Part shown: one piece after another, positions 1 to 55,083 of the stretch
Layout: every line of letters starts with the position of its first letter
How positions within the stretch are numbered: the first letter of the stretch is position 1
DNA from: Methyloprofundus sedimenti
Lineage (GTDB): Bacteria > Pseudomonadota > Gammaproteobacteria > Methylococcales > Methylomonadaceae
NCBI RefSeq assembly: GCF_002072955.1
Contig: NZ_LPUF01000005.1
Coordinates: 1 to 64,000 of the forward strand
Direction: 5' to 3'
Length of the DNA: 64,000 nt
Notes under the pieces: model-generated
Told to the model about the DNA's origin: nothing
Databases searched by the model: none
The model's input: the letters and a program-made list of their open reading frames with translations, nothing else
Made by a program: the position numbers and the translations under genes

Positions 1-1173
1 GAAACTCGTTTAGACGAAGAGCTAAGTCAGTTGCAAGAGGAACTCGCAAACTGGACTTATCAACCCTCGCCAGTCCGTCGAGTAGAAATAGCCAAGCCGG
101 GAGGCAAAGGTGTACGACTACTCGGCATACCGACGGTACGGGATCGAGTGGTACAAACAACATTAAAGCTACTGCTGGAACCGGTCTTTGATCCGCATTT
201 TTCACCGCACAGCTATGGATTTCGCCCAGGGCGAAGCCAGCACGAAGCGGTACAAGCGGCACAACAGATAGTGAACAGTGGCAAGCCCTACGTGGTGGAT
301 ATAGATCTATCCAAGTTTTTTGATAGAATCCATCACGACAGGCTGATAGCCCGAATGGGCGAGAAAATATCCGACAAACGGATACTTCGCCTAGTCGGAA
401 ACATGTTGCGTAGCGGCGTCATGATCAATGGCATCGTCAACCCCAGCAAGGAAGGCGCAATGCAAGGGGGCTCACTCAGTCCCTTGCTGAGCAATATCGT
501 TCTGGATGAACTGGATCAGGAATTGGAAAAACGTGGACTGGAATTTTGCAGGTACGCGGACGACTGTAATATCTTCGTAAAATCGCAAAAAGCGGCAGAT
601 CGAGTGATGGAAAAAGTCAGCCAATTCATCGAAAAGAAGCTGAAACTGAAAGTGAATCAGGAGAAAAGCCAGGTGGCTAAATCCGATGCGGTAAAGTTTT
701 TAGGTTTTACCGTGGTTAAGGGGACAATTGCCATTGCGCATAAAGCCCTGCAAACAGCCATGAGTAAAATCGAAGAACTGACACCGCGAGGTACACATCA
801 GACTCTGGATACATCACTGGACGAGATCAATCAATGGTATGTGGGCTGGTCAAATTACTACAGTTTGACTTACTACCCCTCACAATTGAATAAAATCGAA
901 GCCCATATCAGGCGACGACTACGATCACGAATAGTCGATCAACAAAAGAGAAAACAGCATCTATATCGAAAACTGGCCAAACGGGGCGTACCACGAAAAC
1001 AAGCATCAAAAGCCGTCTTTTCAAACAACAAACGGTGGCAACTCTCCAATGCGCGAGCAGTGACGAGGGCTTATCCGAACAGTTGGTTTATAAATCTGAA
1101 AGGGCAGGAAATACGATCCGACCGAAAGTTAGAGCATTGGTTTGAAGTTTCTCAATGGATACGTCTTGCGTGA
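1..1173 (+). CDS. ltrA: Group II intron reverse transcriptase/maturase (5'-truncated by window edge)
   Basis: This multifunctional intron-encoded protein would assist splicing and copy the intron by target-primed reverse transcription. The frame is open from base 1, so the true start is upstream; 390 residues are visible. Reverse transcriptase blocks appear in order: the GIPTVRDRVVQ region, the SYGFRPGRS motif, VVDIDLSKFFD, the MQGGSLSPLLSN block, and the catalytic YADD at 553-564. A maturase (domain X) region rich in basic and aromatic residues follows (about 790-950). No HNH endonuclease is visible at the C-terminus, and the stop codon directly precedes domain V. Family assignment is firm; activity is unknown. 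Confidence 0.92.
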   Translation, partial: ETRLDEELSQLQEELANWTYQPSPVRRVEIAKPGGKGVRLLGIPTVRDRVVQTTLKLLLEPVFDPHFSPHSYGFRPGRSQHEAVQAAQQIVNSGKPYVVDIDLSKFFDRIHHDRLIARMGEKISDKRILRLVGNMLRSGVMINGIVNPSKEGAMQGGSLSPLLSNIVLDELDQELEKRGLEFCRYADDCNIFVKSQKAADRVMEKVSQFIEKKLKLKVNQEKSQVAKSDAVKFLGFTVVKGTIAIAHKALQTAMSKIEELTPRGTHQTLDTSLDEINQWYVGWSNYYSLTYYPSQLNKIEAHIRRRLRSRIVDQQKRKQHLYRKLAKRGVPRKQASKAVFSNNKRWQLSNARAVTRAYPNSWFINLKGQEIRSDRKLEHWFEVSQWIRLA

Positions 1174-1242
1174 GGAGCCGTGTACGGACCCGTACGCACG
1201 GTTCTGTGGGCAGACGGGAGCTGCGGCTCCCTCTGACCCGAT
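1..1242 (+). mobile_element. Group II intron, 3' portion (5' end outside window)
   Basis: A maturase reading frame is followed immediately by two RNA folds typical of a group II intron 3' end. Domain V is at about 1175-1205: GAGCCGT pairs with ACGGTTC, a distal GTACG/CGTAC stem is capped by a short loop, and there is a two-base GC bulge on the 3' side. Domain VI is at about 1208-1239, with a GGGAGC/GCTCCC stem, a CAGA/TCTG stem and an unpaired A at 1236 suited to be the branch point. The 3' splice site is probably at 1242, after CCCGAT. Domains I-IV and the 5' exon lie before the window, so the insertion site and intron class cannot be settled here. Confidence 0.85.
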
Positions 1243-1248
1243 AAAATT

Positions 1249-1290
1249 CTGGGTTAGATTATCTAACGAAGCGTAGATAATCTAACCCAG
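1249..1290 (-). terminator. Long perfect hairpin, likely terminator of the fadL-type gene
   Basis: Two 17-base arms (1249-1265 and 1274-1290) are perfectly complementary around an 8-base loop. Read on the minus strand, the hairpin lies 41 bases past the stop codon of the outer-membrane porin gene and is followed by AATTTTAT, fitting a Rho-independent terminator. The sequence also has the look of a dispersed repeat: a GGGTTA...TAACCC palindrome followed by CCTAC. It starts only about 6 bases beyond the predicted intron 3' end. Confidence 0.6.
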
Positions 1291-1331
1291 CCTACAAAAT
1301 ATTACCGCTTGCCTAAGCACTGACTACTTAC

Positions 1332-2651
1332 TTAAAGCCGATAAGTGAAATTCAGAGCGAAGAACGAGAACCAGGCATTAGCATAGGATCCAGAGACCTG
1401 CCCCCGCAAAATATTATCTGCTCCCTGAGTCACCGACATATCACCATTCCACATAAATTCGTAGGATGCGTTGACATCTAACTTCTGAGTTACTTGCCAT
1501 AGTGCTCCAAGACCGAAACGCCAGGCCTCACCCATTGGCAGAACTACAGTACGGTCTTTGTTGCTCACTGCCGAACTGTCGTAGGCGAAGCCACTGGTAA
1601 ACACCCAATCGGGAAATGCTTTGTACTGGACACCAATAGCCCCGTGCCAGGTATCCTGATAATTGAGGTTTGCCGTCAGGGTACTGGAATCAGAAGATTG
1701 CAGCCCGATATCGACTTTGCCAAACTGACTCCAGTCCTGCCATCCGACATCTCCCATGATCGCCCATTCATCATCGATTTGTTGATAAAAACCAAACATT
1801 ACAGATTGCGGCACGTTCATGCCGAGATTTACACTCGACGGATTAGCAAGTACTTTACTCAGTCCGGGCCCCAGGTTGCTATAACTAGGGGTGGCCGCGA
1901 AGTCGAGGTTTATCTGAGATTGATAGGTGATGCCAAATCGCGTTCCTTTACGTGGTTCAATTAAAATACCGACGTTGGCACCAAATCCCCAGGTATTGTC
2001 TTTGAGTGTCATCTGTCCATCACCGACTCTGGGGTCAAGATTGTTGATCGCCACCTCGTCTTTCAAGTAGCCAAACATAGCATTCATCCCAATACCAATT
2101 GAGAGCCAGTCAGTCGCCTTGTAACTCACGGAAGGCATTATGGAAACCCCAACCAGAGCACTCTTTTGCACATAATAGCGGCCCACCCAGTTTTCGTTAT
2201 ATTCTTCAACCAGACCGAAATTAGAAAATGCGCCCAGGCCGAATTTCCATTTATCAGAAAAATCATGGACATAGAAAAGACTCAAGCCCGGCAACGCGCC
2301 GATTGCATTGCCGCCCCCATCGCTGCCGAGCTTGGGTGAAGTATTCCCATCTGGGGAGAATTCAACATCGCCATACAGGAACTGTCCGCCGGCCTGGATC
2401 TGCGAGCCGTGCAGACGACTCATGCCCGCAGGATTCTTGAATAGTGTAGACGCATCCTGCGCTCTGGCAGAATAACCGGCCGAAGCCAGTCCAACATCAG
2501 GTGTACCGATTTCGTAAAGACTAATGCCACCGGAATGTGCCGATTGCGGTAGTACTGCGAAAATAAGTACACCAACCAAAAATACAGGTTTGTCGTTGGG
2601 TCTGATATTCAGTGACTTGTTGCAACATATAGTGTCCATAGCATAGTCCAT
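1332..2651 (-). CDS. FadL/TodX (OMPP1) family outer-membrane transporter
   Basis: This is a predicted outer-membrane beta-barrel that would take up hydrophobic compounds such as long-chain fatty acids or hydrocarbons. A signal segment (hydrophobic FLVGVLIFAVLP followed by SAHS) precedes the mature start with EIGTPDVGLASAG, the hallmark N-terminal plug of the FadL family. The NPAGMSRL segment and the alternating aromatic strands ending in a C-terminal FTYRL support the call. Length is about 439 residues, close to E. coli FadL. I chose the ATG at 2651; an in-frame TTG at 2669 would add six residues, and 2639 is a further option. The gene stands alone on the minus strand and the substrate cannot be told from sequence. 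Confidence 0.85.
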   Translation of the reverse strand: MDYAMDTICCNKSLNIRPNDKPVFLVGVLIFAVLPQSAHSGGISLYEIGTPDVGLASAGYSARAQDASTLFKNPAGMSRLHGSQIQAGGQFLYGDVEFSPDGNTSPKLGSDGGGNAIGALPGLSLFYVHDFSDKWKFGLGAFSNFGLVEEYNENWVGRYYVQKSALVGVSIMPSVSYKATDWLSIGIGMNAMFGYLKDEVAINNLDPRVGDGQMTLKDNTWGFGANVGILIEPRKGTRFGITYQSQINLDFAATPSYSNLGPGLSKVLANPSSVNLGMNVPQSVMFGFYQQIDDEWAIMGDVGWQDWSQFGKVDIGLQSSDSSTLTANLNYQDTWHGAIGVQYKAFPDWVFTSGFAYDSSAVSNKDRTVVLPMGEAWRFGLGALWQVTQKLDVNASYEFMWNGDMSVTQGADNILRGQVSGSYANAWFSFFALNFTYRL

Positions 2652-2738
2652 TATCAAAGTGAACTCCAAAAGTTTAAGTCGGACTACCAGAATCTGACAT
2701 GTATCGCTTCTCGATAGATCAGGGCATGCTTATTACTC

Positions 2739-3314
2739 TTAGCGCCATACCGCACGACGATATACAGCTCTTCGCTCAACCCCTCTGTACGACAAAGGAG
2801 TCATCGGCATGCCAATAATATCTATAAATAAAGACGCAATCCCTCCTGATGCTGGTAAATTACCTTCTAATACTTTAACTGTGTAAGTCAGTTTGCTCCC
2901 TACCAGCTGAGGGTTTGTTAATTCCACGACAACATCATCGACACTATCGTTACCTAAAATCGATATTGTTGCATTGGGTGGGTTAGCAGCAAAACTGTCT
3001 TTACCTACTGACCATGATTTTACCCATCCCTCTGTATCAACATGCCCTGTAATACGCTCTGGCCGGTCAGAAAAAAATAATGTTGCTGGCCCAATACCGT
3101 GCAGAGTCAACTGATTATCCTTTGAAGTAATGGCGTGAGCTGTTTGTACAAACAAATATTGCACAGATTTGGCTTTGCTCTGTGCTTGTTCTGATTCTGC
3201 TACGGTGGTGTCACTCAGAAGCGCGACAGCCATAACTGATGAAATTGAGGTAATGGCAACTAAGCCAGTAAGTGCTGCATATTTAATAAATACACGTTTA
3301 GTTAGTGGGTTCAT
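2739..3314 (-). CDS. Predicted exported protein of unknown function
   Basis: The product has 191 residues and an N-terminal signal-like segment (KYAALTGLVAITSISSVMAVA), so it is probably periplasmic or secreted. The central part (YLFVQTAHA, LHGIGPATLFFSDRPERITGH) resembles a recurring type of bacterial exported protein with an FSDRP motif, for which I know no function. The C-terminus carries a short repeated basic stretch (RRAVYRRAVWR) that looks like low-complexity tail growth. Its own ATG at 3314 is preceded by a purine-rich GGAAAA. It lies 87 bases upstream of the FadL-type gene on the same strand, so cotranscription is possible but not shown. Confidence 0.6.
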   Translation of the reverse strand: MNPLTKRVFIKYAALTGLVAITSISSVMAVALLSDTTVAESEQAQSKAKSVQYLFVQTAHAITSKDNQLTLHGIGPATLFFSDRPERITGHVDTEGWVKSWSVGKDSFAANPPNATISILGNDSVDDVVVELTNPQLVGSKLTYTVKVLEGNLPASGGIASLFIDIIGMPMTPLSYRGVERRAVYRRAVWR

Positions 3315-3393
3315 GGCGATTTTCCATATTAAAAAATTTATATGTCAATGAGTTATTATATAGATATTTTTATTGAATTTTTGTTATTTTCTG

Positions 3394-3499
3394 GCGGCCG
3401 ATTTTTGCCTATAGCTGCGTTGCTTAAACATTTGCGTAGCTTGCTATGCGCCTGTTTATTCGCCGTGCTTTCGACTAAAATCAACTCGCTATAAAATCA
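3394..3499. repeat. Possible dispersed palindromic repeat next to the IS element
   Basis: About 100 bases with partly complementary ends (GATTTT..TATAGC near 3400-3415 and GCTATAAAATC near 3489-3499) and an internal GCGTAGC/GCTATGC palindrome. It is non-coding in appearance and has the style of intergenic repeats in gammaproteobacteria. Only one copy is in this window, so repeat status is inferred from its symmetry. The IS1595-type element inserted immediately beyond it. Confidence 0.35.
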
Positions 3500-3507
3500 T
3501 AGATCAA

Positions 3508-4563
3508 GGCTATGTCACCGTAAAGTATGGAATTTCATATAACAAGAGCGTATAAGTAAATAAAGCCCATGTAAATTAAGGAGATAGCTATGAACGCCCC
3601 AGAGTTTTTAGAGTTCATTTCCGAAATAAATCAACTTGACCACCATCAACGCACTGTTCTAACGAAAGCACTGGATCAACTAGAGGACGAACCTAAGGTT
3701 TTTGATTTAATTGAAACAATATTTGATAGCAAAGGTAAATGCCCTCATTGCTCCCATACCGAAAGCCACAGGCATGGAATAAAAGATGGCCTTCAGCGCT
3801 ACCGCTGTAAAGCCTGCAAAAAGACATTTAATGCTTTGACAGGAACGCCTCTTGCTCATCTACGCCTCAAGTCAAAGTGGCTTGATTACTTAGGAGCTAT
3901 CGCAGAATCATTGACTGTCCGGCAGGCAGCTAAAGAAATTAATGTGCATCGAAATACAACCTTTCGATGGCGGCACCGTTTTTTAAGCTGGATTCAGCAG
4001 GATCGTCCCAGTGCTCTTCATGGCATTACAGAAGCTGATGAAACCTACTTACTTGAGTCACATAAAGGAGAACGCCATCTCAATCGTCAACCAAGGAAAC
4101 GAGGGGGCTGTGCGACTAAGCGAGGGATTTCTGATGAGCAAATGTGCATTTTAATTGCTCGTGATCGCTCAAAACAAACCGTAGATTTTGTGACAGGTAA
4201 TGGCCCAATAAGCAAAATTGTTCTTGATACGCATTTAAAGCCAATACTAGACCAGGATGCCCTCCTTGTGAGTGATGGCAATCCAACTTATGGTGCATTT
4301 TGTAAAGCTGAAAAAGTATCTCATGAAATCGTTAACATGAGTCAAGGGCAGCGGGTGACTAAAGGGGCCTATCATATACAAAATGTCAATGCATACCACC
4401 ACCGTTTTAAATCATGGCTAGACCGCTTTCATGGTGTAGCCACCAAGTATTTACCTAATTATTTGGCTTGGTGCAGAATTATGGATCGGAACCTCAATCT
4501 AACCCCTGAGCAATTGTTACATTCTGCTCTGGGTGATTTTCAATACTTAACGGTGACATAGCC
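3508..4563 (+). mobile_element. Insertion sequence of the IS1595 family, 1056 bp, structurally complete
   Basis: Terminal inverted repeats of about 23 bases flank the transposase gene. The left end 3508-3530 begins GGCTATGTCACCGT and the right end 4541-4563 is its reverse complement, with 21 of 23 positions identical. A perfect 8-bp target duplication, TAGATCAA, flanks it at 3500-3507 and 4564-4571. Eight-base duplications are typical of this family. Intact ends, intact transposase and an unmutated duplication point to a fairly recent insertion. Confidence 0.93.
3590..4561 (+). CDS. IS1595-family transposase
   Basis: This 323-residue transposase catalyses movement of the surrounding element. 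The N-terminal third has a zinc ribbon (CPHCSHTESH and CKAC) typical of IS1595 transposases. A helix-turn-helix-like stretch (VRQAAKEINVHRNTTFRWRHRF) follows, then an ISXO2-like catalytic domain with acidic residues in EADETYL and VSDGNPTYGAF, and a C-terminal NAYHHRFKSWLDRFHGVATKYL region where the family's last catalytic residue lies. The start ATG follows a good ribosome binding site (AAGGAGATAGCT). The stop codon lies within the right inverted repeat, as is common in compact elements. The frame is intact. Confidence 0.92.
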   Translation: MNAPEFLEFISEINQLDHHQRTVLTKALDQLEDEPKVFDLIETIFDSKGKCPHCSHTESHRHGIKDGLQRYRCKACKKTFNALTGTPLAHLRLKSKWLDYLGAIAESLTVRQAAKEINVHRNTTFRWRHRFLSWIQQDRPSALHGITEADETYLLESHKGERHLNRQPRKRGGCATKRGISDEQMCILIARDRSKQTVDFVTGNGPISKIVLDTHLKPILDQDALLVSDGNPTYGAFCKAEKVSHEIVNMSQGQRVTKGAYHIQNVNAYHHRFKSWLDRFHGVATKYLPNYLAWCRIMDRNLNLTPEQLLHSALGDFQYLTVT

Positions 4564-4653
4564 TAGATCAAAGACCTGGCCCTAAAGTTTCTAAAAGTTC
4601 TTACTTATTTGTCAATAAACTCGAAATTCGGAACCTGCCCACGGTTTTCCTTT

Positions 4654-4923: not shown

Positions 4924-5007
4924 TTTAAGTTTACTCTGGCCCTGATTATGTCAGTTATTTGCCAGTTATTTAACTTGATCATTATATATTGACTACTTTG
5001 ATATAAA

Positions 5008-5043
5008 AAAACTAGTAAACATTGTTATACTGAACTAGTTTAC
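5008..5043 (+). promoter_or_regulatory. Candidate promoter with flanking operator-like repeats, upstream of the FecR gene
   Basis: The segments ACTAGTAAAC (5011-5020) and ACTAGTTTAC (5034-5043) form a near-perfect direct repeat and also parts of an inverted repeat (AAACTAGT/ACTAGTTT; GTAAAC/GTTTAC). Between them lies TATACT (about 5026-5031), a plausible sigma-70 -10 box, though no good -35 box is at the right spacing. The layout suits a regulated promoter; the regulator is unknown. Confidence 0.4.
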
Positions 5044-5077
5044 TTCTAAAAAGATAATACTTAATTAAAGGTTTTAT

Positions 5078-5545
5078 ATGATGCTTGCGAACAAAATTTC
5101 TCTTTCGAACAGTAAAGCCAGCTATATTTTATCAGCGATACTTTTGCTATTTTGTACAGCACCGTTTGCCAATGAGCGTATCGGTTTGGTTAAAACCTAT
5201 ACGCCTGATGGTTTTGTCGTACGGCAAGGAGTTGAAACAGCTTTGCAAACCGGCTCGGATATTTTTCAGGGCGACACGCTTGAAACAGGATCGGAGGGTG
5301 CTATTGGTATCATTTTTAAGGATGGTGCCGTATTAACGCTAGGACCGAACTGTAAACTAAGTATCGATAATTTTCTTTTTAATCCCAGCGAAAAGAAAGT
5401 TTCTTTCGTTTCGCGGATAATAAGGGGTACGGTTGCGTTTGTGTCAGGCGCCATTGGCAGAATTTCCCCTGATTCCGTTCAATTTCAAACCCCAACCGCA
5501 ACACTCGGTTTACGCGGAACCAAAATTTTAATTGAAGTGAAGTAG
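5078..5545 (+). CDS. FecR-domain periplasmic protein
   Basis: The 155-residue product starts with a signal peptide (hydrophobic SAILLLFCTAPFA, then NE) and continues as a FecR-like domain. It has the GDTLETGSEGAIGIIFKDGAVLTLGPN pattern of short beta repeats and a closing TPTATLGLRGT motif that many stand-alone FecR proteins share. Such domains act in the periplasm as sensory or scaffold modules; unlike true FecR there is no anti-sigma segment and no sigma factor nearby. It is the first gene of a run with an OmpA-type lipoprotein 35 bases downstream and a CHASE2-HD-GYP protein after that, suggesting a shared envelope-sensing role. The ligand is unknown. Confidence 0.82.
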   Translation: MMLANKISLSNSKASYILSAILLLFCTAPFANERIGLVKTYTPDGFVVRQGVETALQTGSDIFQGDTLETGSEGAIGIIFKDGAVLTLGPNCKLSIDNFLFNPSEKKVSFVSRIIRGTVAFVSGAIGRISPDSVQFQTPTATLGLRGTKILIEVK

Positions 5546-5580
5546 CGTTTTTATCCAAATCGATTTATCGAGTTTAATTT

Positions 5581-6174
5581 ATGAATATGAAAATAATCTT
5601 TAACCTGTTGATAGCCTCTTTCTTGATCGGATGTAGCGGAACAACAGTTGTTTTAGTCCCCGATCCTGACGGTAAAGTCGGTGAAGTCTCTCTTGCTACA
5701 GAAGGAGGAACGACTCTGCTGTCTAAAGCAAATGAAAGTGCGCAGGCGCCAGAAGCCGGCCAGGCGCCCACTCAAGCAGCTGTATTAAGCGCAAAGAAAA
5801 TCAATGATATGTTTTCCGAAATCTTGGCTAATGAACCGACGCCTCCCAAACGTTACCGTTTGTATTTTTCGACAGGAAGCGCTTCATTGACAGCTGAAAC
5901 CAGAGCGGAAATCACCAAAATCATAGTGTCTATCCAAGATCGAAAATCCTGTGATCTAAGTGTCATCGGGCATAGTGATCGGGTCGGCGATAATAAAAGC
6001 AACAAAGGTATTTCCTTAGTGAGGGCCGAAAATGTCGCCAAGGCTTTAACAGATAACGGTGTGGACAGAAAATGTATGGATATTCGCTATTATGGTGAAA
6101 ACGATCCTGCTGTTCCTACCGCCGACAATGTCGCGGAAGAACGTAACCGACGCGTTGAAGTTGAGATCCGATAA
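5581..6174 (+). CDS. OmpA-family peptidoglycan-binding lipoprotein
   Basis: The 197-residue product starts with a lipoprotein signal (LLIASFLIGC, with Cys18 as the likely lipidated residue), followed by a low-complexity linker of about 60 residues rich in Ala, Gln and Pro. The C-terminal OmpA-like domain (about residues 95-197) begins YFSTGSASLT. It has the expected peptidoglycan-contact region (VIGHSDRVGDNKSNKGISLVRAENV) and ends in NRRVEVEI. It probably anchors an outer-membrane or periplasmic complex to the cell wall. It sits between the FecR-domain gene and the CHASE2 sensor gene, 10 bases before the latter. Confidence 0.86.
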   Translation: MNMKIIFNLLIASFLIGCSGTTVVLVPDPDGKVGEVSLATEGGTTLLSKANESAQAPEAGQAPTQAAVLSAKKINDMFSEILANEPTPPKRYRLYFSTGSASLTAETRAEITKIIVSIQDRKSCDLSVIGHSDRVGDNKSNKGISLVRAENVAKALTDNGVDRKCMDIRYYGENDPAVPTADNVAEERNRRVEVEIR

Positions 6175-6184
6175 GCGCTTTGTA

Positions 6185-8233
6185 ATGCCTCCACAGATTC
6201 TTCAAAAAACACAGTTGGACGGTCTGACTCCGCAATTCTCTAAATCAGAAGAAAAAATCAATACAATTCTATTTGGAACGGCATTAACACTCTTACTATT
6301 GATACTCGGCGTAAAATTTCCAAACATCGTCGAAAAAATCAATAATGAAGTCACTGCGGTCCAGATCAGATTATTACCGGAAACACCCTTGTCCCGATTA
6401 CCCGTCATCGTGGAAGTGGATGAAAAAAGCCTTGTTGAGTATGGCCAATGGCCATGGCCTCGCTATCAAGTGGCGCAATTGCTTGAAGCTATTCAACGAG
6501 CCGGTGCTCTTAGTGTTGCGATTGACGCCGTGTTTGTTGAAAGAGATAGAACTTCTCCGCTGGAGATTCAGCGCGTTGCCGAAAGAGATTTTGGGCAATT
6601 TTTTTCGTTAAAAGGGATCGATAAAGCGCTCTGGGACTACGACTATGCTTTGGGGGAAACATTAAAGTCCGGGCCTTTTATACTCAGTTATTTTTTTTCC
6701 AATGACAAACCTTACCAAAAGTCCTGTCAACCGAAATCGGCTGGCGGTGCCTGGTTTTCAGCCGGCGGGGAAAAGCAGTCGTTGCATGTGCCAGCGCCTC
6801 AGAATGTTTTTTGCAATATAGAAGTACTGCAGCTGGCGGCCAAATATAGCGGGTTTATCAACTCCAAGGTCGATGCCGACGGACTTTATCGCGAGTCGCC
6901 ATTGATCATCGAATACAATGGTCAGCTTTATCCGAGCCTGGCCTTACAGGCTTATTTATCAGCAAAAAAAATCGACCACTTTTTAGTTTCAGCAAAGGAA
7001 AGCGGTTTGACTTTACAGGCGGGAAAAATCCAGATCCCGCTCGATCATGCAGGCAATTTACTGGTTAGATTTCCGAAATCCGAACAAACCTTCGAAAAAA
7101 TATCTGCATCCGATGTTCTTTCCAATAAAATCGGAACAAGCCGCTTGAAAGATAAAATCGTCATTGTCGGTTTTTCAGCTACGGGTTTACATGAGGTTCG
7201 TCCTACCCCTTATGCGCCGCAGTTTTTGGGTGTTGAAGTGCATGCATCAATCATCGACAACTTATCCCGGCATAATTTCTTGCATCGGCCCGACTATGCT
7301 AACGGATTGGAATTGTTTTTAGCCACAATGCTTGGACTTGTACTCTTTATCACTTTAGCCAGTGCAGGGCCAATCACACTTACGATTGTCCATTGCCTGA
7401 TAATTTTCTTGCTTTTCGCCGGATCGCAATCTCTTTTAGCTTTGTCCGGAATGGTCGTCTCACCCGCGCTACCCGTTATCATGGCCTTGGTAACCTTTTT
7501 ATCACTGTCATTAATCAAATACGCACAAGAAAGTCTTCATACCAAACGAATGAACTTAATGGTTGCCAGGACTCAAGAGGGCATTATTCAAAGCTTCAGT
7601 TCTATGTCAGAGTTTCGAGACCCCGAAACTGGCGCTCATATTCGGCGCACTCAACATTATGTCAAAGTGCTGGCGACTCATCTACAGCAACATCCAAAAT
7701 TCCAAACGGAGCTGACAGACGACATCATTGAGTTATTCTTTAAAGCTGCTCCTCTCCATGATATTGGTAAAGTCGGTATTCGCGATAACATTCTGCTTAA
7801 ACCCGGTTATCTTGAAAGTGACGAATTTGAAATCATGAAATCTCATCCACAAATTGGGGCCGACATCGTCGATGCTGTTGCGGCTCAAAGCGGCTGGAAT
7901 CCTTTTATGCGGATTGCCCAGGAAATTTGTTTATCGCACCATGAAAAATGGGATGGCAGCGGCTACCCCAAGGGATTAGTTGGCGAAGAAATTCCTCTGT
8001 CCGCCAGATTAATGATGCTTGCTGACGTCTATGATGCCTTAATCAGCAAACGAGTTTACAAACCAGCGTACTCGCATAATAAAGCTAAATCGATTATTCT
8101 CGAGGGCAAAAATAAGCATTTTGACCCTCTGGTCGTAGACGCTTTTCTAGCCACTGAAAATCAGTTTTTGGAAATTGCTCTCCAATTTCTCGACAGCGAC
8201 GATCAGCGACAGACCTTGCTCTCCGAAGTATAA
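6185..8233 (+). CDS. CHASE2 sensor protein with C-terminal HD-GYP phosphodiesterase domain
   Basis: This predicted inner-membrane receptor would convert a periplasmic signal into cyclic-di-GMP hydrolysis. Taking the ATG at 6185, just past the OmpA gene, gives 682 residues; the frame also runs 42 codons further upstream inside that gene, which I regard as overlap. One membrane segment (about residues 24-42) precedes a periplasmic CHASE2 domain (LPVIVEVDEKSL, WPWPRYQVAQLL, FVERDR). Three membrane segments follow (about 370-450), then an HD-GYP domain with the HD pair near residue 525 (LHDIGKVGIRDN), HHEKWDGSGYPKGL and ADVYDAL. The metal-binding and GYP residues look intact, so activity is likely. 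It is the last gene of the set with the FecR and OmpA proteins. Confidence 0.9.
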   Translation: MPPQILQKTQLDGLTPQFSKSEEKINTILFGTALTLLLLILGVKFPNIVEKINNEVTAVQIRLLPETPLSRLPVIVEVDEKSLVEYGQWPWPRYQVAQLLEAIQRAGALSVAIDAVFVERDRTSPLEIQRVAERDFGQFFSLKGIDKALWDYDYALGETLKSGPFILSYFFSNDKPYQKSCQPKSAGGAWFSAGGEKQSLHVPAPQNVFCNIEVLQLAAKYSGFINSKVDADGLYRESPLIIEYNGQLYPSLALQAYLSAKKIDHFLVSAKESGLTLQAGKIQIPLDHAGNLLVRFPKSEQTFEKISASDVLSNKIGTSRLKDKIVIVGFSATGLHEVRPTPYAPQFLGVEVHASIIDNLSRHNFLHRPDYANGLELFLATMLGLVLFITLASAGPITLTIVHCLIIFLLFAGSQSLLALSGMVVSPALPVIMALVTFLSLSLIKYAQESLHTKRMNLMVARTQEGIIQSFSSMSEFRDPETGAHIRRTQHYVKVLATHLQQHPKFQTELTDDIIELFFKAAPLHDIGKVGIRDNILLKPGYLESDEFEIMKSHPQIGADIVDAVAAQSGWNPFMRIAQEICLSHHEKWDGSGYPKGLVGEEIPLSARLMMLADVYDALISKRVYKPAYSHNKAKSIILEGKNKHFDPLVVDAFLATENQFLEIALQFLDSDDQRQTLLSEV

Positions 8234-8687: not shown

Positions 8688-9968
8688 ATGAAACTGGGAC
8701 TACTGGCGGGTACACATTCCGGTTGCGGAAAAACCACCCTGATGCTGACATTATTACAATATTTAAAAGCTCGGCAGCACAGTGTTGTTTCTTTTAAATC
8801 CGGGCCTGACTTTTTAGATCCTTTGTGGCATCAGGTGGTAACAGGCAGGCAGTCTTATAATGTTGATACCCGTATGATTGGTGTGCAACACTCTGCACAG
8901 CTCATTGCCCAGCAAGCTGCGGTTGCTGACTGTGGGTTGATAGAAGGCGTGATGGGTTTGTTTGATGGACGCTCGGGCGTTGGTGGTAGTGGTTCCAGTG
9001 CTGAACTGGCGCAAGCTTTGCAGGTACCCGTTTTTCTGGTGGTGGATGCCGGGGGTATGAGCGGGTCAATTGTGGCTATGGTCAGTGGTTATGTTACATA
9101 CGCACAAAAAATGGGCGTAACTATTGCCGGAATTATAGCTAACCGTGTTGGCAGTAAGCATCATGCAGGCTTATTAAGCGAGGCTTTATCTGATTATCAG
9201 CAGCCTCCCCTGGTCGCCTGGATGGAAAAAAGCGCACCTGTGTTACCTGAGCGACATTTGGGATTAGTGCAGCCGTCAGAAGTTCAACTACCGGATTTTT
9301 TACCTTTTCTGCATATTGAAGTTGATAATTTTGTGGATTTTTTGACTGAAACGTTATTTGTGCCGCCTGAGCCTGTAAAGCAGCAAGGCCTGTTAAAAAA
9401 CAAGAAAATTGCTGTGGCTAAAGATGCGGCCTGTTGTTTTATTTATCCGGCTAATCTGGATTTTTTACGTGAGCAAAGCGCAGAGATTTTATTTTTTTCA
9501 CCGCTTGCAGGTGAGGCGATTCCTTATTGTGCTGATACACTATGGCTGCCGGGCGGGTATCCGGAGTTATTTGCGCAAGCTCTGTCGGTATCAAATACCT
9601 GGCTTTCCTTGCGTGATTTTATCGAGGCAGACAAACCTGTATTAGCCGAATGTGGCGGTGCAATGTTACTGGGTGAGTCTTTAATTGATCTTGATGGGCG
9701 TTCGTGGTCGATGGCGAATATTTTACCTTTTCGTTCGAAAATGCAAACAAAACTGGCATCTTTAGGCTATCGGGAAGAAGCGGCAGGGGTTAAGGGACAT
9801 GAATTTCATCATTCAGTACGCAAAGCAGAGCAATCTTTAGAGCCTTGTTTTCAAGTTGAGCGGGGAGACACAGGCGTACGCTATAAGAATTTACGCGCTT
9901 CTTATGTGCACTGGTATTTTGCCAGTGCACCAGAAGTTATAACAAAGTGGTTGGGTGGTAGTCAATGA
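8688..9968 (+). CDS. cbiA: Cobyrinic acid a,c-diamide synthase (CbiA/CobB type)
   Basis: This cytoplasmic cobalamin-pathway enzyme amidates the a and c side chains of cobyrinate (or its hydrogeno form) using ATP and glutamine. The 426 residues show an N-terminal dethiobiotin-synthetase-like ATP domain with a P-loop (GTHSGCGKTT, residues 8-17), FKSGPDFLDP and EGVMGLFDG. A class I glutamine amidotransferase domain follows from about residue 230, with PGGYPE and the nucleophile Cys in AECGGAM (near residue 322). The gene overlaps the adenosyltransferase gene by four bases (ATGA), so the two are translationally coupled. Whether the pathway is the aerobic or anaerobic one cannot be told from this gene alone. 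Confidence 0.92.
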   Translation: MKLGLLAGTHSGCGKTTLMLTLLQYLKARQHSVVSFKSGPDFLDPLWHQVVTGRQSYNVDTRMIGVQHSAQLIAQQAAVADCGLIEGVMGLFDGRSGVGGSGSSAELAQALQVPVFLVVDAGGMSGSIVAMVSGYVTYAQKMGVTIAGIIANRVGSKHHAGLLSEALSDYQQPPLVAWMEKSAPVLPERHLGLVQPSEVQLPDFLPFLHIEVDNFVDFLTETLFVPPEPVKQQGLLKNKKIAVAKDAACCFIYPANLDFLREQSAEILFFSPLAGEAIPYCADTLWLPGGYPELFAQALSVSNTWLSLRDFIEADKPVLAECGGAMLLGESLIDLDGRSWSMANILPFRSKMQTKLASLGYREEAAGVKGHEFHHSVRKAEQSLEPCFQVERGDTGVRYKNLRASYVHWYFASAPEVITKWLGGSQ

Positions 9969-12826: not shown

Positions 12827-13354
12827 TTGAAAATATTAACAATACCTTTAAAACAAAGCCTGAATTTTATATTACTCAGTATCTTTACGGTGTCTATAAG
12901 TCCGGCGATAGCTAATTCTGACAAGCAAGCCATGGAAGCTGTTCAAAAAGCCCGTCAAATGACTCGGCAAGACGATCATTCAGCACATCTGACACCCGTT
13001 GACGAGAGTCAAAAATTTCGGGGAGTGTATTATGGTTACCTCCCATGCAAAGACTGTGCTGGTACTAAAATGACGCTGTCATTAAAAAATAAAAATAATT
13101 ACTTGCTGGTGACTCAGTATGCAAAAGCCTCATCCAGGGAGTATTACGATAAAGGTAAATATACCTGGGATGACAAAACGCGTACTGTTACCTTGGTATC
13201 GCGCAAGAATTCAAGCATAAGTAAATACAGTATTATAGATGAAGGAACACTTGTTCCGTTTACTGTTGATGGAACACCCAGGGTCGTTGATCAGGATGAA
13301 TATGCTCTACGCAGAAGCGATACTGTAGAATCCCGTGAAGTGCATATTCATTGA
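12827..13354 (+). CDS. Periplasmic NlpE N-terminal-domain-like protein
   Basis: The 175-residue product starts at TTG behind AAGAGG. It has a signal peptide (FILLSIFTVSISPAIA), and the mature part contains the GVYYGYLPCKDCAG motif followed by alternating strands ending in DEYALRR. This is the pattern of the NlpE N-terminal domain, a small barrel with a CxxC pair linked in E. coli to copper and envelope stress. Unlike NlpE there is no lipobox cysteine, so it is probably soluble in the periplasm. A His-rich tail (REVHIH) and an earlier DDHSAH could bind metal; this is speculation. It precedes the glucan synthase gene by 185 bases. Confidence 0.7.
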   Translation: MKILTIPLKQSLNFILLSIFTVSISPAIANSDKQAMEAVQKARQMTRQDDHSAHLTPVDESQKFRGVYYGYLPCKDCAGTKMTLSLKNKNNYLLVTQYAKASSREYYDKGKYTWDDKTRTVTLVSRKNSSISKYSIIDEGTLVPFTVDGTPRVVDQDEYALRRSDTVESREVHIH

Positions 13355-13539: not shown

Positions 13540-16137
13540 TTGATAAAAAAGACCAGCTTTTCGCTTATAACGCTCGCTCTCCTTGTGACGGCCAATTTTT
13601 TTTTCTGGGCTTACATAAACCGTCCTGATAAAGTGCAGTCATGGGTGGGGCCAATGATGGGTGTATCCTTCAACCCCATGCGTGCGGATAATAATCCCAC
13701 AAAAGGTATTTATCCAAGTGAAGCGGAAATTAATGACGACTTGTCTTTACTGGTTGGACGCGTCCATGCTGTGCGCACCTATAGTGTTCAGAACGGTCTT
13801 GAACGCGTTCCTGAACTTGCGGCACAGCATAAACTAAATGTCACCGTCGGCGCTTGGATCAGCAGCAACCCTGTAGAAAGTCAAAAAGAAATAGATGCTT
13901 TAATCAGTATTAGTCGTAATAAGCATGCTGATAATATTGTGCGTACGCTGGTCGGCAATGAGTCTCTTCTGCGTAAAGAAGTGACCGTAGATGAACTCAT
14001 TGCTTATCTTAAGCAGGTTCGTAAACGAACATGGCGTCCGGTCAGTACATCAGAAACCTGGGATATATGGTTAGCCCATCCCGAACTAGCCAATGAAGTC
14101 GATTTTATTGCGGCCCATATTTTGCCCTACTGGGAAGGCATTCCAGCTGAAGAAGCAGTTGACTATGTATTCAACCGTTATCAAGCCCTGCGTGATGCTT
14201 TTCCTGATAAACCTATTGTCTTAACCGAAGTTGGCTGGCCTTCAGATGGCCAGCCAATACGTGGTGCAACGGCCAGCAAAGTCAACCAGGTTAGGTTTCT
14301 CCGTGATTTCCTGAATCGTGCAAAACAACAAGGATTAACTTACTATGTAGTAGAGGCGTTTGATCAGCCATGGAAGCAAGACATCGAGGGCTCTTCAGGT
14401 GCTTACTGGGGTATATTTACTGCAGATCGGGAAGCTAAATTTCAAATGCAAGGCGATGTGTTTAATATGCCTGACTGGCGAGACTGGGCGTTAATAGCGG
14501 CTATTTTAAGTATGCTGCTCATGACTCTGTTTTTGTTTACCCGGGTCAATATGAAGCTATCTGGAAAGATTTTTTTTGGCATTATCGCCAATCTTTCTGC
14601 CTCAACAATAGCATGGACAACATCCATAGGTGTAAGCCAATATCAAACGACACTGAGTCTGGCCCTGTGGATTATATTGCTGCTCATGCAGGCGATGGCG
14701 ATTCTTGTTTTACTGGTGGAGACGCTGGAAATTTCCGAAGTGCTCTGGAGCTCAGGAGGACAACGCAGCTTTAAGCCATTATCAGCGCCCAGTGATTTTG
14801 TTTACCCAAAAGTCTCATTGCATGTCCCTATTTATAACGAACCGCCTGAGATGGTCAAACAGACTTTAGCGGCATTGGCTAAGCTGGATTATCCAAATTT
14901 AGAGGTATTAATTATTGATAATAATACCAAAGATCCTGGCGTATGGCAGCCTGTTGAAGCTGAATGCAAACGACTTGGATCAGTTTTTCGTTTTTTTCAT
15001 CTGGATAACTGGCCAGGCTATAAAGCCGGAGCTATAAACTATGCACTGACACAAACAGCGAAAGATGCGGAAATCATTGCTGTAATTGATAGTGATTATA
15101 TTGTCGATCCAAACTGGCTAAAAGGTTTGGTGCCTTATTTTTCCAAACAAGACGTGGGTTTTGTACAAGCACCTCAAGATTACCGCGATTGGAGAGAAAA
15201 TAGCTTTAAAGCCTTGTGTCACTGGGAATATGCGGGATTTTTTCAGATTGGTATGGTGCAACGTAACGAATCTAATGCGATTATCCAGCATGGCACTATG
15301 ACTTTAGTGCGCAAATCGGCTTTAGAGTCGGTTGGTAGCTGGGGTGAATGGTGTATCTGTGAAGATAGTGAACTCGGATTGCGTTTATATCGCGCTGGTT
15401 ATGATTCTGTTTATGTGAAAGATTCATTGGGTCGCGGGGTAACGCCGGATACCCTGTCTGGTTATATGATTCAGCGTCATCGTTGGGTTTATGGTGCAAT
15501 GCAAATCCTCAAACATCATTGGCGTGCCTTGTTAAGGAGCAAGCAGTCATGTTTAACTCCCGCACAGCGATATTATTTTCTTGCCGGATGGTTGCCCTGG
15601 TTTTCTGATGCTTTAGCGTTATTATTTACTTTTGCCAGTTTATTGTTGACCATCAACATAATGTTGGATCCTGTACACAGCGAACTTCCAGTAAATGCCT
15701 TTATATTACCGACCATTGGTTTATTTGGCTTTAAAGTTTTTCGAACTATCTGGCTGTATCATGCGCGTGTAGGCTGCTCAACACTGCAAACATTAGGCGC
15801 TGCACTTGCCGGCCTCGCGTTGACTCATACCGTAGCGAAAGGAGTTTGGCAGGGATTATTTACCTCAGGTCGTCCTTTTATGCGTACCCCTAAATTTGAA
15901 AAATCCAGACCTTTTTTAGCTGGCTTGGTCACTATTAAAGAGGAGTTGTGTTTATTGATTTTACTCTGGTATGCAGCCGGTTATATGATGTCGCTAGAGC
16001 ATTTCGATAATGTTACTGGACAATTATGGGTCGCAGTTTTGCTGGTGCAATCAACACCCTATGCGGCTTCTTTTCTTATGCTTCTGGTTAATATCGCGCC
16101 GAATTTATCTTTTAAACAATCAAAGAAGTTAAGTTAG
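13540..16137 (+). CDS. ndvB: GH17-GT2 membrane beta-glucan synthase (NdvB-like)
   Basis: This 865-residue inner-membrane protein joins two enzymes. The N-terminal periplasmic part (about residues 35-300) is a GH17 beta-1,3-glucan hydrolase or transglycosylase domain, with Glu141 in VGNES and Glu230 in the family signature LTEVGWPS. After membrane segments near 316-400 comes a GT2 glycosyltransferase domain (VSLHVPIYNEPPEMV, the IDSDYIVD metal site, CEDSELGLRL and QRHRWV as the QxxRW motif). More membrane spans follow. The architecture matches Pseudomonas aeruginosa NdvB, which makes cyclic beta-1,3-glucans; the exact product here is inferred. Start is TTG at 13540. An OpgC-type gene follows 14 bases later. 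Confidence 0.85.
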   Translation: MIKKTSFSLITLALLVTANFFFWAYINRPDKVQSWVGPMMGVSFNPMRADNNPTKGIYPSEAEINDDLSLLVGRVHAVRTYSVQNGLERVPELAAQHKLNVTVGAWISSNPVESQKEIDALISISRNKHADNIVRTLVGNESLLRKEVTVDELIAYLKQVRKRTWRPVSTSETWDIWLAHPELANEVDFIAAHILPYWEGIPAEEAVDYVFNRYQALRDAFPDKPIVLTEVGWPSDGQPIRGATASKVNQVRFLRDFLNRAKQQGLTYYVVEAFDQPWKQDIEGSSGAYWGIFTADREAKFQMQGDVFNMPDWRDWALIAAILSMLLMTLFLFTRVNMKLSGKIFFGIIANLSASTIAWTTSIGVSQYQTTLSLALWIILLLMQAMAILVLLVETLEISEVLWSSGGQRSFKPLSAPSDFVYPKVSLHVPIYNEPPEMVKQTLAALAKLDYPNLEVLIIDNNTKDPGVWQPVEAECKRLGSVFRFFHLDNWPGYKAGAINYALTQTAKDAEIIAVIDSDYIVDPNWLKGLVPYFSKQDVGFVQAPQDYRDWRENSFKALCHWEYAGFFQIGMVQRNESNAIIQHGTMTLVRKSALESVGSWGEWCICEDSELGLRLYRAGYDSVYVKDSLGRGVTPDTLSGYMIQRHRWVYGAMQILKHHWRALLRSKQSCLTPAQRYYFLAGWLPWFSDALALLFTFASLLLTINIMLDPVHSELPVNAFILPTIGLFGFKVFRTIWLYHARVGCSTLQTLGAALAGLALTHTVAKGVWQGLFTSGRPFMRTPKFEKSRPFLAGLVTIKEELCLLILLWYAAGYMMSLEHFDNVTGQLWVAVLLVQSTPYAASFLMLLVNIAPNLSFKQSKKLS

Positions 16138-37415: not shown

Positions 37416-38639
37416 ATGGCTAAAGAAAAATTTGAACGTAATAAACCACATGTAAACGTAGGCACAATCGGTCACGTTGATCACGGAAAAACGACGCTAA
37501 CAGCTGCATTAACGAAAGTTATGGCGGAACTGCAGGGTGGTGGTATAGTCAAGGCGTTTGATCAAATTGATAATGCGCCAGAAGAGCGTGAACGTGGTAT
37601 TACAATTGCAACATCACACGTAGAGTATGAGTCTGAGACTCGCCACTACGCTCACGTAGACTGTCCGGGTCACGCGGATTATGTAAAAAACATGATTACT
37701 GGTGCTGCGCAAATGGATGGTGCTATTCTGGTGTGTGGTGCAACTGATGGCCCTATGCCGCAAACAAGAGAGCATATCCTGCTATCAAGACAAGTAGGTG
37801 TGCCATATATCGTTGTATTTCTGAACAAAGCTGACATCCTTGCTGATGACTGCGGTGGATTAGGAACAGAAGAATATAACGAAATGATCGAATTAGTTGA
37901 AATGGAGCTTCGTGAGTTATTAGACTTATATGAATTTCCTGGTGATGATACACCCATTATAGTTGGATCAGCATTAAAAGCATTAGAAGGTGATACAAGC
38001 GAAGTAGGCATGCCTTCCGTCATTAAATTAGTTGAAGCGCTGGATACTTATATTCCAGAGCCAGTAAGAGCAACTGAAGGATCATTCTTATTACCGATTG
38101 AAGATGTATTTTCAATCTCAGGTCGCGGAACAGTGGTAACGGGACGTGTAGAGCGTGGTATTGTTAAGGTTGGGGAAGAGATCGAAATCGTAGGCATCAA
38201 GCCAACAGTAAAAACGACCTGTACAGGTGTTGAAATGTTTCGTAAGCTTCTAGATCGTGGGGAAGCGGGCGATAACGTGGGTATCCTGTTAAGAGGAACA
38301 AAACGCGAAGATGTTGAGCGTGGGCAGGTACTGGCGCATGTAGGTTCAATTAAGCCACACACAAGATTCTCGGCAGAAATATACGTACTGTCGAAAGATG
38401 AAGGTGGTCGTCATACGCCATTTTTTAATGGATATCGTCCACAGTTCTACTTCAGAACAACCGATGTAACCGGCGCTGTTGAATTGCCAGCAGGAACAGA
38501 AATGGTAATGCCTGGAGATAACGTATCAGTAGAAGTGACCTTGATCGCGCCAATTGCGATGGAAGAAGGGTTACGTTTTGCGATCCGTGAAGGTGGTCGT
38601 ACAGTGGGTGCGGGTGTTGTTGCAAAAATCATTGAATAA
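37416..38639 (+). CDS. tuf: Elongation factor Tu, copy 1 (tRNA-linked)
   Basis: EF-Tu carries aminoacyl-tRNA to the ribosome as a GTP complex. The G motifs are intact: [14 protein letters not shown] and NKAD. At 407 residues it is 13 longer than the E. coli protein, mostly from about ten extra residues directly after NKAD ([13 protein letters not shown] region). It is nearly identical to the second copy at 53860, with three amino-acid differences: Glu74 here for Lys, Leu near residue 225 for Met, and Ala near residue 358 for Glu. It lies in the same operon as three tRNA genes, the position of E. coli tufB. Confidence 0.98.
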
Positions 38640-53859: not shown

Positions 53860-55083
53860 ATGGCTAAAGAAAAATTTGAACGTAATAAACCACATGTAAA
53901 CGTAGGCACAATCGGTCACGTTGATCACGGAAAAACGACGCTAACAGCTGCATTAACGAAAGTTATGGCGGAATTACAGGGTGGTGGTATAGTCAAGGCG
54001 TTTGATCAAATTGACAATGCGCCAGAAGAGCGTGAACGTGGTATTACAATTGCAACATCACACGTAGAATATGAATCAAAAACGCGTCACTATGCGCATG
54101 TAGACTGTCCAGGTCACGCGGATTATGTAAAAAACATGATTACTGGTGCTGCGCAAATGGATGGTGCTATTCTGGTGTGTGGTGCAACTGATGGCCCTAT
54201 GCCGCAAACAAGAGAGCATATCCTGCTATCAAGACAAGTAGGTGTGCCATATATCGTTGTATTTCTGAACAAAGCTGACATCCTTGCTGATGACTGCGGT
54301 GGATTAGGAACAGAAGAATATAACGAAATGATCGAATTAGTTGAAATGGAGCTTCGTGAGTTATTAGACTTATATGAATTTCCTGGTGATGATACACCCA
54401 TTATAGTTGGATCAGCATTAAAAGCATTAGAAGGTGATACAAGCGAAGTAGGCATGCCTTCCGTCATTAAATTAGTTGAAGCGCTGGATACCTATATTCC
54501 AGAGCCCGTAAGAGCAACTGAAGGGTCATTCTTAATGCCTATTGAAGATGTATTTTCAATCTCAGGTCGCGGAACAGTGGTAACGGGACGTGTAGAGCGG
54601 GGTATTGTTAAGGTTGGGGAAGAGATCGAAATCGTAGGCATCAAGCCAACAGTAAAAACGACCTGTACAGGTGTTGAAATGTTTCGTAAGCTTCTAGATC
54701 GTGGGGAAGCGGGCGATAACGTGGGTATCCTGTTAAGAGGAACAAAGCGTGAAGATGTTGAGCGTGGCCAGGTACTGGCACATGTAGGCTCAATTAAGCC
54801 ACACACAAGATTCTCGGCAGAAATATACGTATTGTCGAAAGATGAAGGTGGTCGTCATACGCCATTTTTTAATGGATATCGTCCACAGTTCTACTTCAGA
54901 ACAACCGATGTAACCGGCGCTGTTGAATTGCCAGAAGGAACAGAAATGGTAATGCCTGGAGATAACGTATCAGTAGAAGTAACCTTGATCGCACCAATTG
55001 CGATGGAAGAAGGGTTACGTTTTGCGATCCGTGAAGGTGGTCGTACAGTGGGTGCGGGTGTTGTTGCAAAAATCATTGAGTAA
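53860..55083 (+). CDS. tuf: Elongation factor Tu, copy 2 (str operon)
   Basis: This second EF-Tu gene also has 407 residues and differs from the copy at 37416 by three amino acids, with silent changes mostly clustered in one short patch. The G motifs and the extra residues after NKAD are the same. Its place behind fusA is that of E. coli tufA. Near identity of two distant copies indicates continuing gene conversion. rpsJ starts only five bases after its stop. Confidence 0.98.

Follow-up and report, generated by a model that had tools for sequence, protein, structure and literature searches.

Do a FecR-domain protein, an OmpA-family lipoprotein and a CHASE2-HD-GYP receptor that are encoded side by side in Methyloprofundus sedimenti act as one signalling unit, and how might such a unit work? 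The three genes lie in a 64,000-nucleotide stretch at the start of contig NZ_LPUF01000005.1 (hereafter the window). An initial annotation, made from the letters alone, had proposed that they form one unit, and all three were recovered at the position and on the strand it gave, except that the receptor start moved from 6059 to 6185:

5078..5545, + strand: short FecR-domain protein, 155 amino acids (Pfam, family alignments, structure model)
5581..6174, + strand: OmpA-family lipoprotein, 197 amino acids (Pfam, family alignments)
6185..8233, + strand: CHASE2-HD-GYP receptor, 682 amino acids, start codon ATG at 6185 (Pfam, homologue starts, structure model)

The FecR and OmpA genes are 35 bases apart, and 10 bases separate the ompA stop from the receptor ATG. 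The start at 6059 set by the open reading frame (ORF) caller falls within ompA; ATG 6185 is most likely the true start because homologues of 679–688 amino acids begin there in the alignment.

To follow the trio across genomes, we surveyed 201 genomes of the order, a 398-genome sample of the phylum and the best 80 of 467 named relatives. In the order, the short-FecR model yielded 39 matches of at least 119.9 bits, one per genome, followed by a gap down to 83 bits, and the lipoprotein model 39 matches of at least 173 bits, the next scoring 78. Both sets fall in the same 39 genomes, and the two genes are adjacent in every one. Among the matches listed, 35 of the 39 pairs have a CHASE2 match no more than 6 kb away, a 36th (L253) adjoins a CHASE2 fragment where the contig ends, and three have no CHASE2 nearby. 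CHASE2 occurs in 121 of the 201 genomes, comprising all 39 with the pair versus 82 of the 162 others (Fisher test, 1.3e-10, uncorrected for kinship). Exactly five full-length CHASE2-HD-GYP proteins were found (897–941 bits; the next match, at 399 bits, covers HD-GYP only), each with a FecR-OmpA pair upstream; in G186, an HD-GYP fragment that lies where a contig ends was left unclassed.

The phylum sample gave the same picture: all 27 genomes that encode the lipoprotein have CHASE2, versus 200 of 371 without it, after removal of three of 30 genomes (G208, G216, G523) whose match was confined to the generic OmpA part. Besides the window's own genome, adjacency within about 2 kb was read by hand in 15 of 26. 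In the best 80 of the 467 named relatives, FecR stands beside OmpA in all 80 loci (the count takes in short frames and pieces cut by a contig end, e.g. L174, L223 and L228) and CHASE2 beside the pair in 58. HD-GYP receptors lie downstream of the pair on the same strand, and the order FecR, OmpA, receptor on one strand holds for all 43 distinct loci that have both the pair and a CHASE2-HD-GYP protein; L195 has a second pair on the opposite side of the same receptor. Evolutionary distances also co-vary across the 74 loci that passed the length filters (FecR-OmpA, r = 0.76; FecR-CHASE2, 0.66; OmpA-CHASE2, 0.58), with none of 2,000 permutations reaching values as high. Co-occurrence, gene order, spacing and co-variation thus lend good support to the claim of one signalling unit, and we are highly confident that the three genes act together.

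The same pair also accompanies other receptors. CHASE2 receptors beside it end in an HD-GYP domain, a histidine kinase (with or without a receiver or PAS), an adenylate cyclase or a SpoIIE-type phosphatase. On a FecR+OmpA tree of 121 loci, 43 have an HD-GYP receptor, 21 a kinase, 16 a cyclase, three a SpoIIE phosphatase, two are unclear and 36 have no receptor near, and the four outputs require at least 11 changes. Four duplicate loci (L175, L178, L179, L255) and the second pair of L195 were left out of this tree, L266 and L268 are absent from it as no FecR was within reach, and L032, whose frame ends after the CHASE2 and linker portion, was labelled as a histidine kinase by hand.

What do the three parts contribute? 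For the FecR protein the window sequence alone is borderline, with 27.5 bits to Pfam FecR (PF04773) against a cut-off of 24. Its family alignments have 23 and 66 rows; all 66 members of the larger one match PF04773 at E 0.01, and FecR is the only Pfam match of the protein at this level. The structure model (predicted local distance difference test, pLDDT, 93) comprises a hydrophobic N-terminal helix (residues 11–24) and one beta domain, and a probable signal peptide ends near residue 32, as judged by eye. In classical anti-sigma regulators of the FecR/PupR type, the FecR domain follows a cytoplasmic anti-sigma domain at the N-terminus and then a membrane helix. In contrast, Pfam and the model show no cytoplasmic part and no further membrane part in the trio's FecR, which has neither the anti-sigma domain nor the membrane part of that class. 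The model matches the signalling domain of PupR (6ovk, Z 6.4) less well than an adhesin anchoring domain (5ix9, Z 10.2; sequence E 1.2e-7). Membership of the LapA retention module family (NF033682) was rejected at 25.2 bits against a cut-off of 50.

The lipoprotein reaches 61.5 bits to Pfam OmpA (PF00691; cut-off 27.2), and two of its features precede that domain:

5632..5634, + strand: codon of the lipobox cysteine (Cys18; LIGC-S), Cys in 23/23 and 66/68 aligned rows
5635..5862, + strand: conserved stretch of about 75 residues between lipid anchor and OmpA domain (VVLxxDxDGxxGxV...)

Serine at position +2 after a lipobox cysteine directs sorting to the outer membrane, and the serine found here suggests that destination for the lipoprotein. 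Within the OmpA domain, Asp133 and Arg148, a pair with a role in peptidoglycan binding, are kept in the family alignment, as is the lipobox; the protein accordingly combines the features of OmpA-like peptidoglycan-binding lipoproteins, namely the Cys18 lipobox, the OmpA domain, Asp133 and Arg148. The conserved stretch lies outside Pfam OmpA, which begins at residue 95, and is strongly maintained (Gly31 and Gly34 in 68 of 68 rows, Leu25 in 67, Asp28 in 59). It is a candidate docking part.

The receptor combines CHASE2 (PF05226, 178.2 bits, cut-off 26.3) with HD_5 (PF13487, 91.7 bits, cut-off 27.2), and its Pfam output matches are HD domains only, without GGDEF:

6293..7339, + strand: periplasmic CHASE2 sensor with flanking helices (Pfam 178 bits, helices of the model)
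7550..8200, + strand: predicted cytoplasmic HD-GYP phosphodiesterase domain (structure matches, alignment, conservation counts)

CHASE2 receptors have one membrane helix before the sensor and three after it. The model (pLDDT 90) agrees with this topology, placing helix 20–44 before CHASE2 and helices 372–390, 396–421 and the start of 428–478 after it, so that the chain runs through one helix, CHASE2, three membrane-type helices, a stalk and the HD-GYP domain. Among the matches listed by Foldseek and VIA, all rows are filled by HD-GYP structures (PA4781, 4r8z, Z 30.9; PmGH, 4mcw, Z 28.0; DvhD, 9rbz, Z 23.6), with none for the CHASE2 part. All eight metal ligands known from PmGH are present (E481, H485, H525, D526, H554, H585, H586 and D614), as is a GSGYP motif; the set is nearly complete in relatives, H586 being Gln in 10 of 38 rows. 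From sequence and model, the domain is probably an active cyclic-di-GMP phosphodiesterase. The organism's own genome contains one CHASE2, seven GGDEF, six PilZ and five HD_5 matches, and the GGDEF and PilZ matches indicate that the cyclic-di-GMP messenger system exists in it. The proposed layout of a periplasmic FecR domain, a wall-bound lipoprotein and a membrane receptor with a probable phosphodiesterase therefore agrees with sequence and models.

Some of these associations have precedents. The neighbourhood of FecR and CHASE2 is already known from Burkholderia, Sinorhizobium meliloti and Campylobacterota (PMC5192318, PMC5498481, PMC9239204). In the BiofilmReg operon of Burkholderia contaminans, in which an insertion in the first gene abolished biofilm, the available text places a CHASE2 receptor next to a FecR protein that carries a peptidoglycan-binding domain (PMC5192318). 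The trio likewise has a FecR protein and a CHASE2 receptor in one cluster, but BiofilmReg, as described there, has its LysM fused to FecR and signals through a histidine kinase and a response regulator, whereas the trio has a separate OmpA lipoprotein and an HD-GYP domain, and has no LysM, kinase or regulator. The accessible sections on S. meliloti report the FecR gene smc02177 near the CHASE2 adenylate cyclase CyaD1, and sensing there also needs the outer-membrane barrel NsrA (PMC5498481); in Campylobacterota, a FecR-domain gene clusters with CHASE2 adenylate cyclases (PMC9239204). The output of these systems is cyclic AMP (cAMP), and the portions available of both papers do not mention an OmpA lipoprotein for them. 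Searches of open-licence PubMed Central papers, among them the pairings CHASE2+OmpA, FecR+HD-GYP and CHASE2+HD-GYP, turned up no listing or accessible passage that describes the FecR-OmpA-CHASE2-HD-GYP trio.

Judged by layout, the closest working analogue is YfiBNR of Pseudomonas aeruginosa and its homologue HmsCDE of Yersinia, for which the text at hand describes an OmpA-type outer-membrane lipoprotein that sequesters a periplasmic repressor and so frees an inner-membrane diguanylate cyclase (PMC2837407, PMC4655355, PMC5550408). The likeness lies in the three layers, a periplasmic protein, an OmpA lipoprotein and a membrane enzyme, and shows that such a layout works. The parts are unrelated: the trio's periplasmic component is FecR, not YfiR, its sensor is CHASE2, not PAS-like, and its enzyme is predicted to degrade the cyclic-di-GMP that the YfiBNR enzyme makes. 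Membership of YfiBNR itself was rejected, the trio having no GGDEF cyclase and no YfiR-family protein, and its lipoprotein scoring 53.2 bits to the YfiB model against a cut-off of 128.

By analogy we propose the same logic, realized with other parts and a degrading enzyme. The lipoprotein would be held by its lipid in the outer membrane and by its OmpA domain in the peptidoglycan, and thus doubly anchored would signal what state the outer membrane and wall are in or how far apart they lie. Soluble FecR would serve as a periplasmic go-between, with the lipoprotein and the CHASE2 domain as alternative binding partners. A change in CHASE2 would be relayed across the membrane helices and along the helical stalk, and the response of the HD-GYP domain would set the rate of cyclic-di-GMP breakdown; in other bacteria, the same front end would drive a histidine kinase, an adenylate cyclase or a SpoIIE-type phosphatase. 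What we observe are the parts, their order, their co-occurrence and co-variation, a catalytic site that is intact, and the exchange of outputs. We infer that the proteins touch, that FecR moves from one partner to the other, what the stimulus is and in which direction control runs. We regard it as an even call whether the trio is a tripartite trans-envelope receptor working in this manner. Wall sensing and biofilm control, both suggested by the initial annotation, likewise stay inferences.

The strongest rival dispenses with release or sequestration: FecR would be part of the sensor, and a standing FecR-OmpA complex in the envelope would act as scaffold or ligand of CHASE2. FecR and OmpA are never separate in the 39 order genomes or the best 80 named relatives, and in other classes FecR is fused to its anchor, which leaves no room for free shuttling there: in L039, LysM is fused to FecR near a CHASE2 receptor, and L107 encodes a fusion with TPR and a probable beta-barrel. 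The FecR of the trio, however, is soluble and separate, and the precedents YfiR and HmsC are, in the text available, repressors that the lipoprotein takes away. We consider a standing complex unlikely, if still worth serious attention.

Front ends vary in further ways. A longer FecR protein replaces the short one in 17 of 81 CHASE2 loci. The L107 protein (857–4321, 1,154 amino acids; FecR, TPR, probable beta-barrel) is encoded upstream of a CHASE2 cyclase and may be a counterpart of the S. meliloti barrel NsrA. In L260, L261 and L262, the lipoprotein is replaced by a protein of 679–723 amino acids that carries the same OmpA part at its end behind a hydrophobic stretch (by eye), has a FecR gene and a CHASE2 cyclase as neighbours, and looks anchored in the inner membrane rather than lipidated. 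In six loci (L075, L078, L085, L091, L101, L074), an HD-GYP protein of 723–752 amino acids is encoded with the FecR-OmpA pair on one side and a CHASE2 adenylate cyclase on the other; this recurrent four-gene set mixes cyclic-di-GMP and cAMP parts, and the two proteins that were scanned are of the GAF-HD-GYP type.

Next in strength among the rivals is signalling from the inside out, as in LapD and DvhD. The HD-GYP domain would then mainly bind cyclic-di-GMP, and the receptor would alter the state of FecR and OmpA, for instance how firmly the outer membrane holds on to the wall. DvhD of Desulfovibrio is described in the accessible text as an inner-membrane HD-GYP protein acting as a cyclic-di-GMP switch (PMC13090378), and it is among the structures that the receptor model matches. 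Both LapD and DvhD resemble the receptor in joining periplasmic and cyclic-di-GMP domains in an inner-membrane protein, and the trio's FecR resembles an adhesin anchoring domain. Unlike in those systems, no protease or adhesin partner was seen for the trio, no large adhesin gene appears among the window ORFs listed, and the catalytic site is intact in the window and its ligands nearly so in relatives. Moreover, the front end also occurs on kinases, cyclases and a phosphatase, which are outputs and not messenger receptors. We judge the inside-out explanation improbable.

Several observations weigh against the proposed receptor. No CHASE2 lies near the pair in 11 of the 26 phylum-sample genomes (hand-read) and in 22 of the 80 named loci, several of them at contig ends; a scan of 10 proteins neighbouring such pairs revealed no common substitute receptor. 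Conversely, 41 of 81 CHASE2 loci, mostly cyclases, have no FecR nearby (80 CHASE2 loci were drawn mostly from the top of the order-wide CHASE2 list, among the matches listed). Independent distribution of the three genes, which the initial annotation had named as the finding that would speak against a unit, thus does not apply to FecR and OmpA (39 of 39), whereas CHASE2 often occurs without them. Cyclase receptors lie on the opposite strand in 10 of 17 loci and hence are not in one operon with the pair there, and the correlated distances may stem from common species history. According to the available text, smc02177 of S. meliloti is dispensable for signal perception (PMC5498481), which counts against a general role of FecR. 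Finally, the structure models cover single chains only.

In part, these observations favour a reading in which the genes are neighbours by descent only, FecR-OmpA being an envelope-maintenance pair that travels with CHASE2 receptors by chance. Receptors without the pair and pairs without a nearby receptor both occur, and the place of the trio is unstable, since it directly adjoins a mobile element:

3497-4574: complete IS1595-family element immediately 5' of the trio, with its transposase at 3590-4561 and imperfect terminal inverted repeats of 41 bases

The association nevertheless recurs across phyla with four outputs and repeated swaps, and pair-bearing genomes have CHASE2 without exception in order and phylum sample alike. 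We give this reading very little credence.

The trio was gained or kept patchily, beside mobile elements, as it is absent from the genus siblings examined: other genus members in the order sample have no FecR or OmpA matches of its families, and neither FadL, IS1595 nor the trio was found in six sibling flanks beside the cobB block (two of them short, their contigs ending). A cobB-like gene begins at 8688, downstream of the trio (cob names assigned by eye), and cobB is kept in 10 of 11 genomes of the genus sample. Control of surface glucan, also suggested initially, found no support: cobB, cobO and other unrelated genes intervene between the trio and the GH17-GT2 glucan gene (13540-16137), and in the six flanks examined siblings keep the cobB block without the trio, so we rejected this link. 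Between 4400 and 8800, promoter-like (9 versus 8.1 expected) and terminator-like matches (5 versus 4.9) stay at chance level and give no argument for or against internal promoters; candidate internal promoters and terminators were set aside. One further feature precedes the trio:

5002..5048, no strand: imperfect inverted repeat just 5' of the FecR gene (15-base arms, 80%, 17 apart)

Lying around a possible fecR promoter, this candidate operator might be a regulatory site. Elsewhere in the window, an NlpE-domain protein (12827-13354; Pfam NlpE, 69.9 bits) represents a second protein of the envelope-stress type a few kb from the trio, an ORF at 31-1173 resembles a group II intron reverse transcriptase (by eye), and an exported-looking 191-amino-acid ORF (2739-3314) has no match in Pfam or NCBIfam. 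Two near-identical EF-Tu genes (37416-38639 and 53860-55083) lie in a ribosomal region (by eye).

What, then, does the trio mean for CHASE2 receptors in general? CHASE2 sensors are common, and the available text of PMC5192318 gives their stimulus as unknown. The fixed FecR-OmpA partner pair directs the search for this stimulus to the outer membrane and the wall, via a protein partner. Tentatively, and with a little less assurance than an even chance would warrant, we suggest a widespread, so far undescribed class of tripartite trans-envelope receptors in Pseudomonadota, Desulfobacterota and other phyla. In these, CHASE2 would have FecR as its dedicated partner in the periplasm, FecR being attached to an anchor in the envelope (a separate OmpA lipoprotein, a fused LysM or a fused TPR/beta-barrel), and one front end would serve HD-GYP, kinase, cyclase and SpoIIE outputs. 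If true, this would for the first time offer a shared explanation of what CHASE2 domains respond to. Since the four output types would share one front end, what is learned in a single tractable species would apply to cyclic-di-GMP, cAMP, phosphorelay and phosphatase pathways alike.

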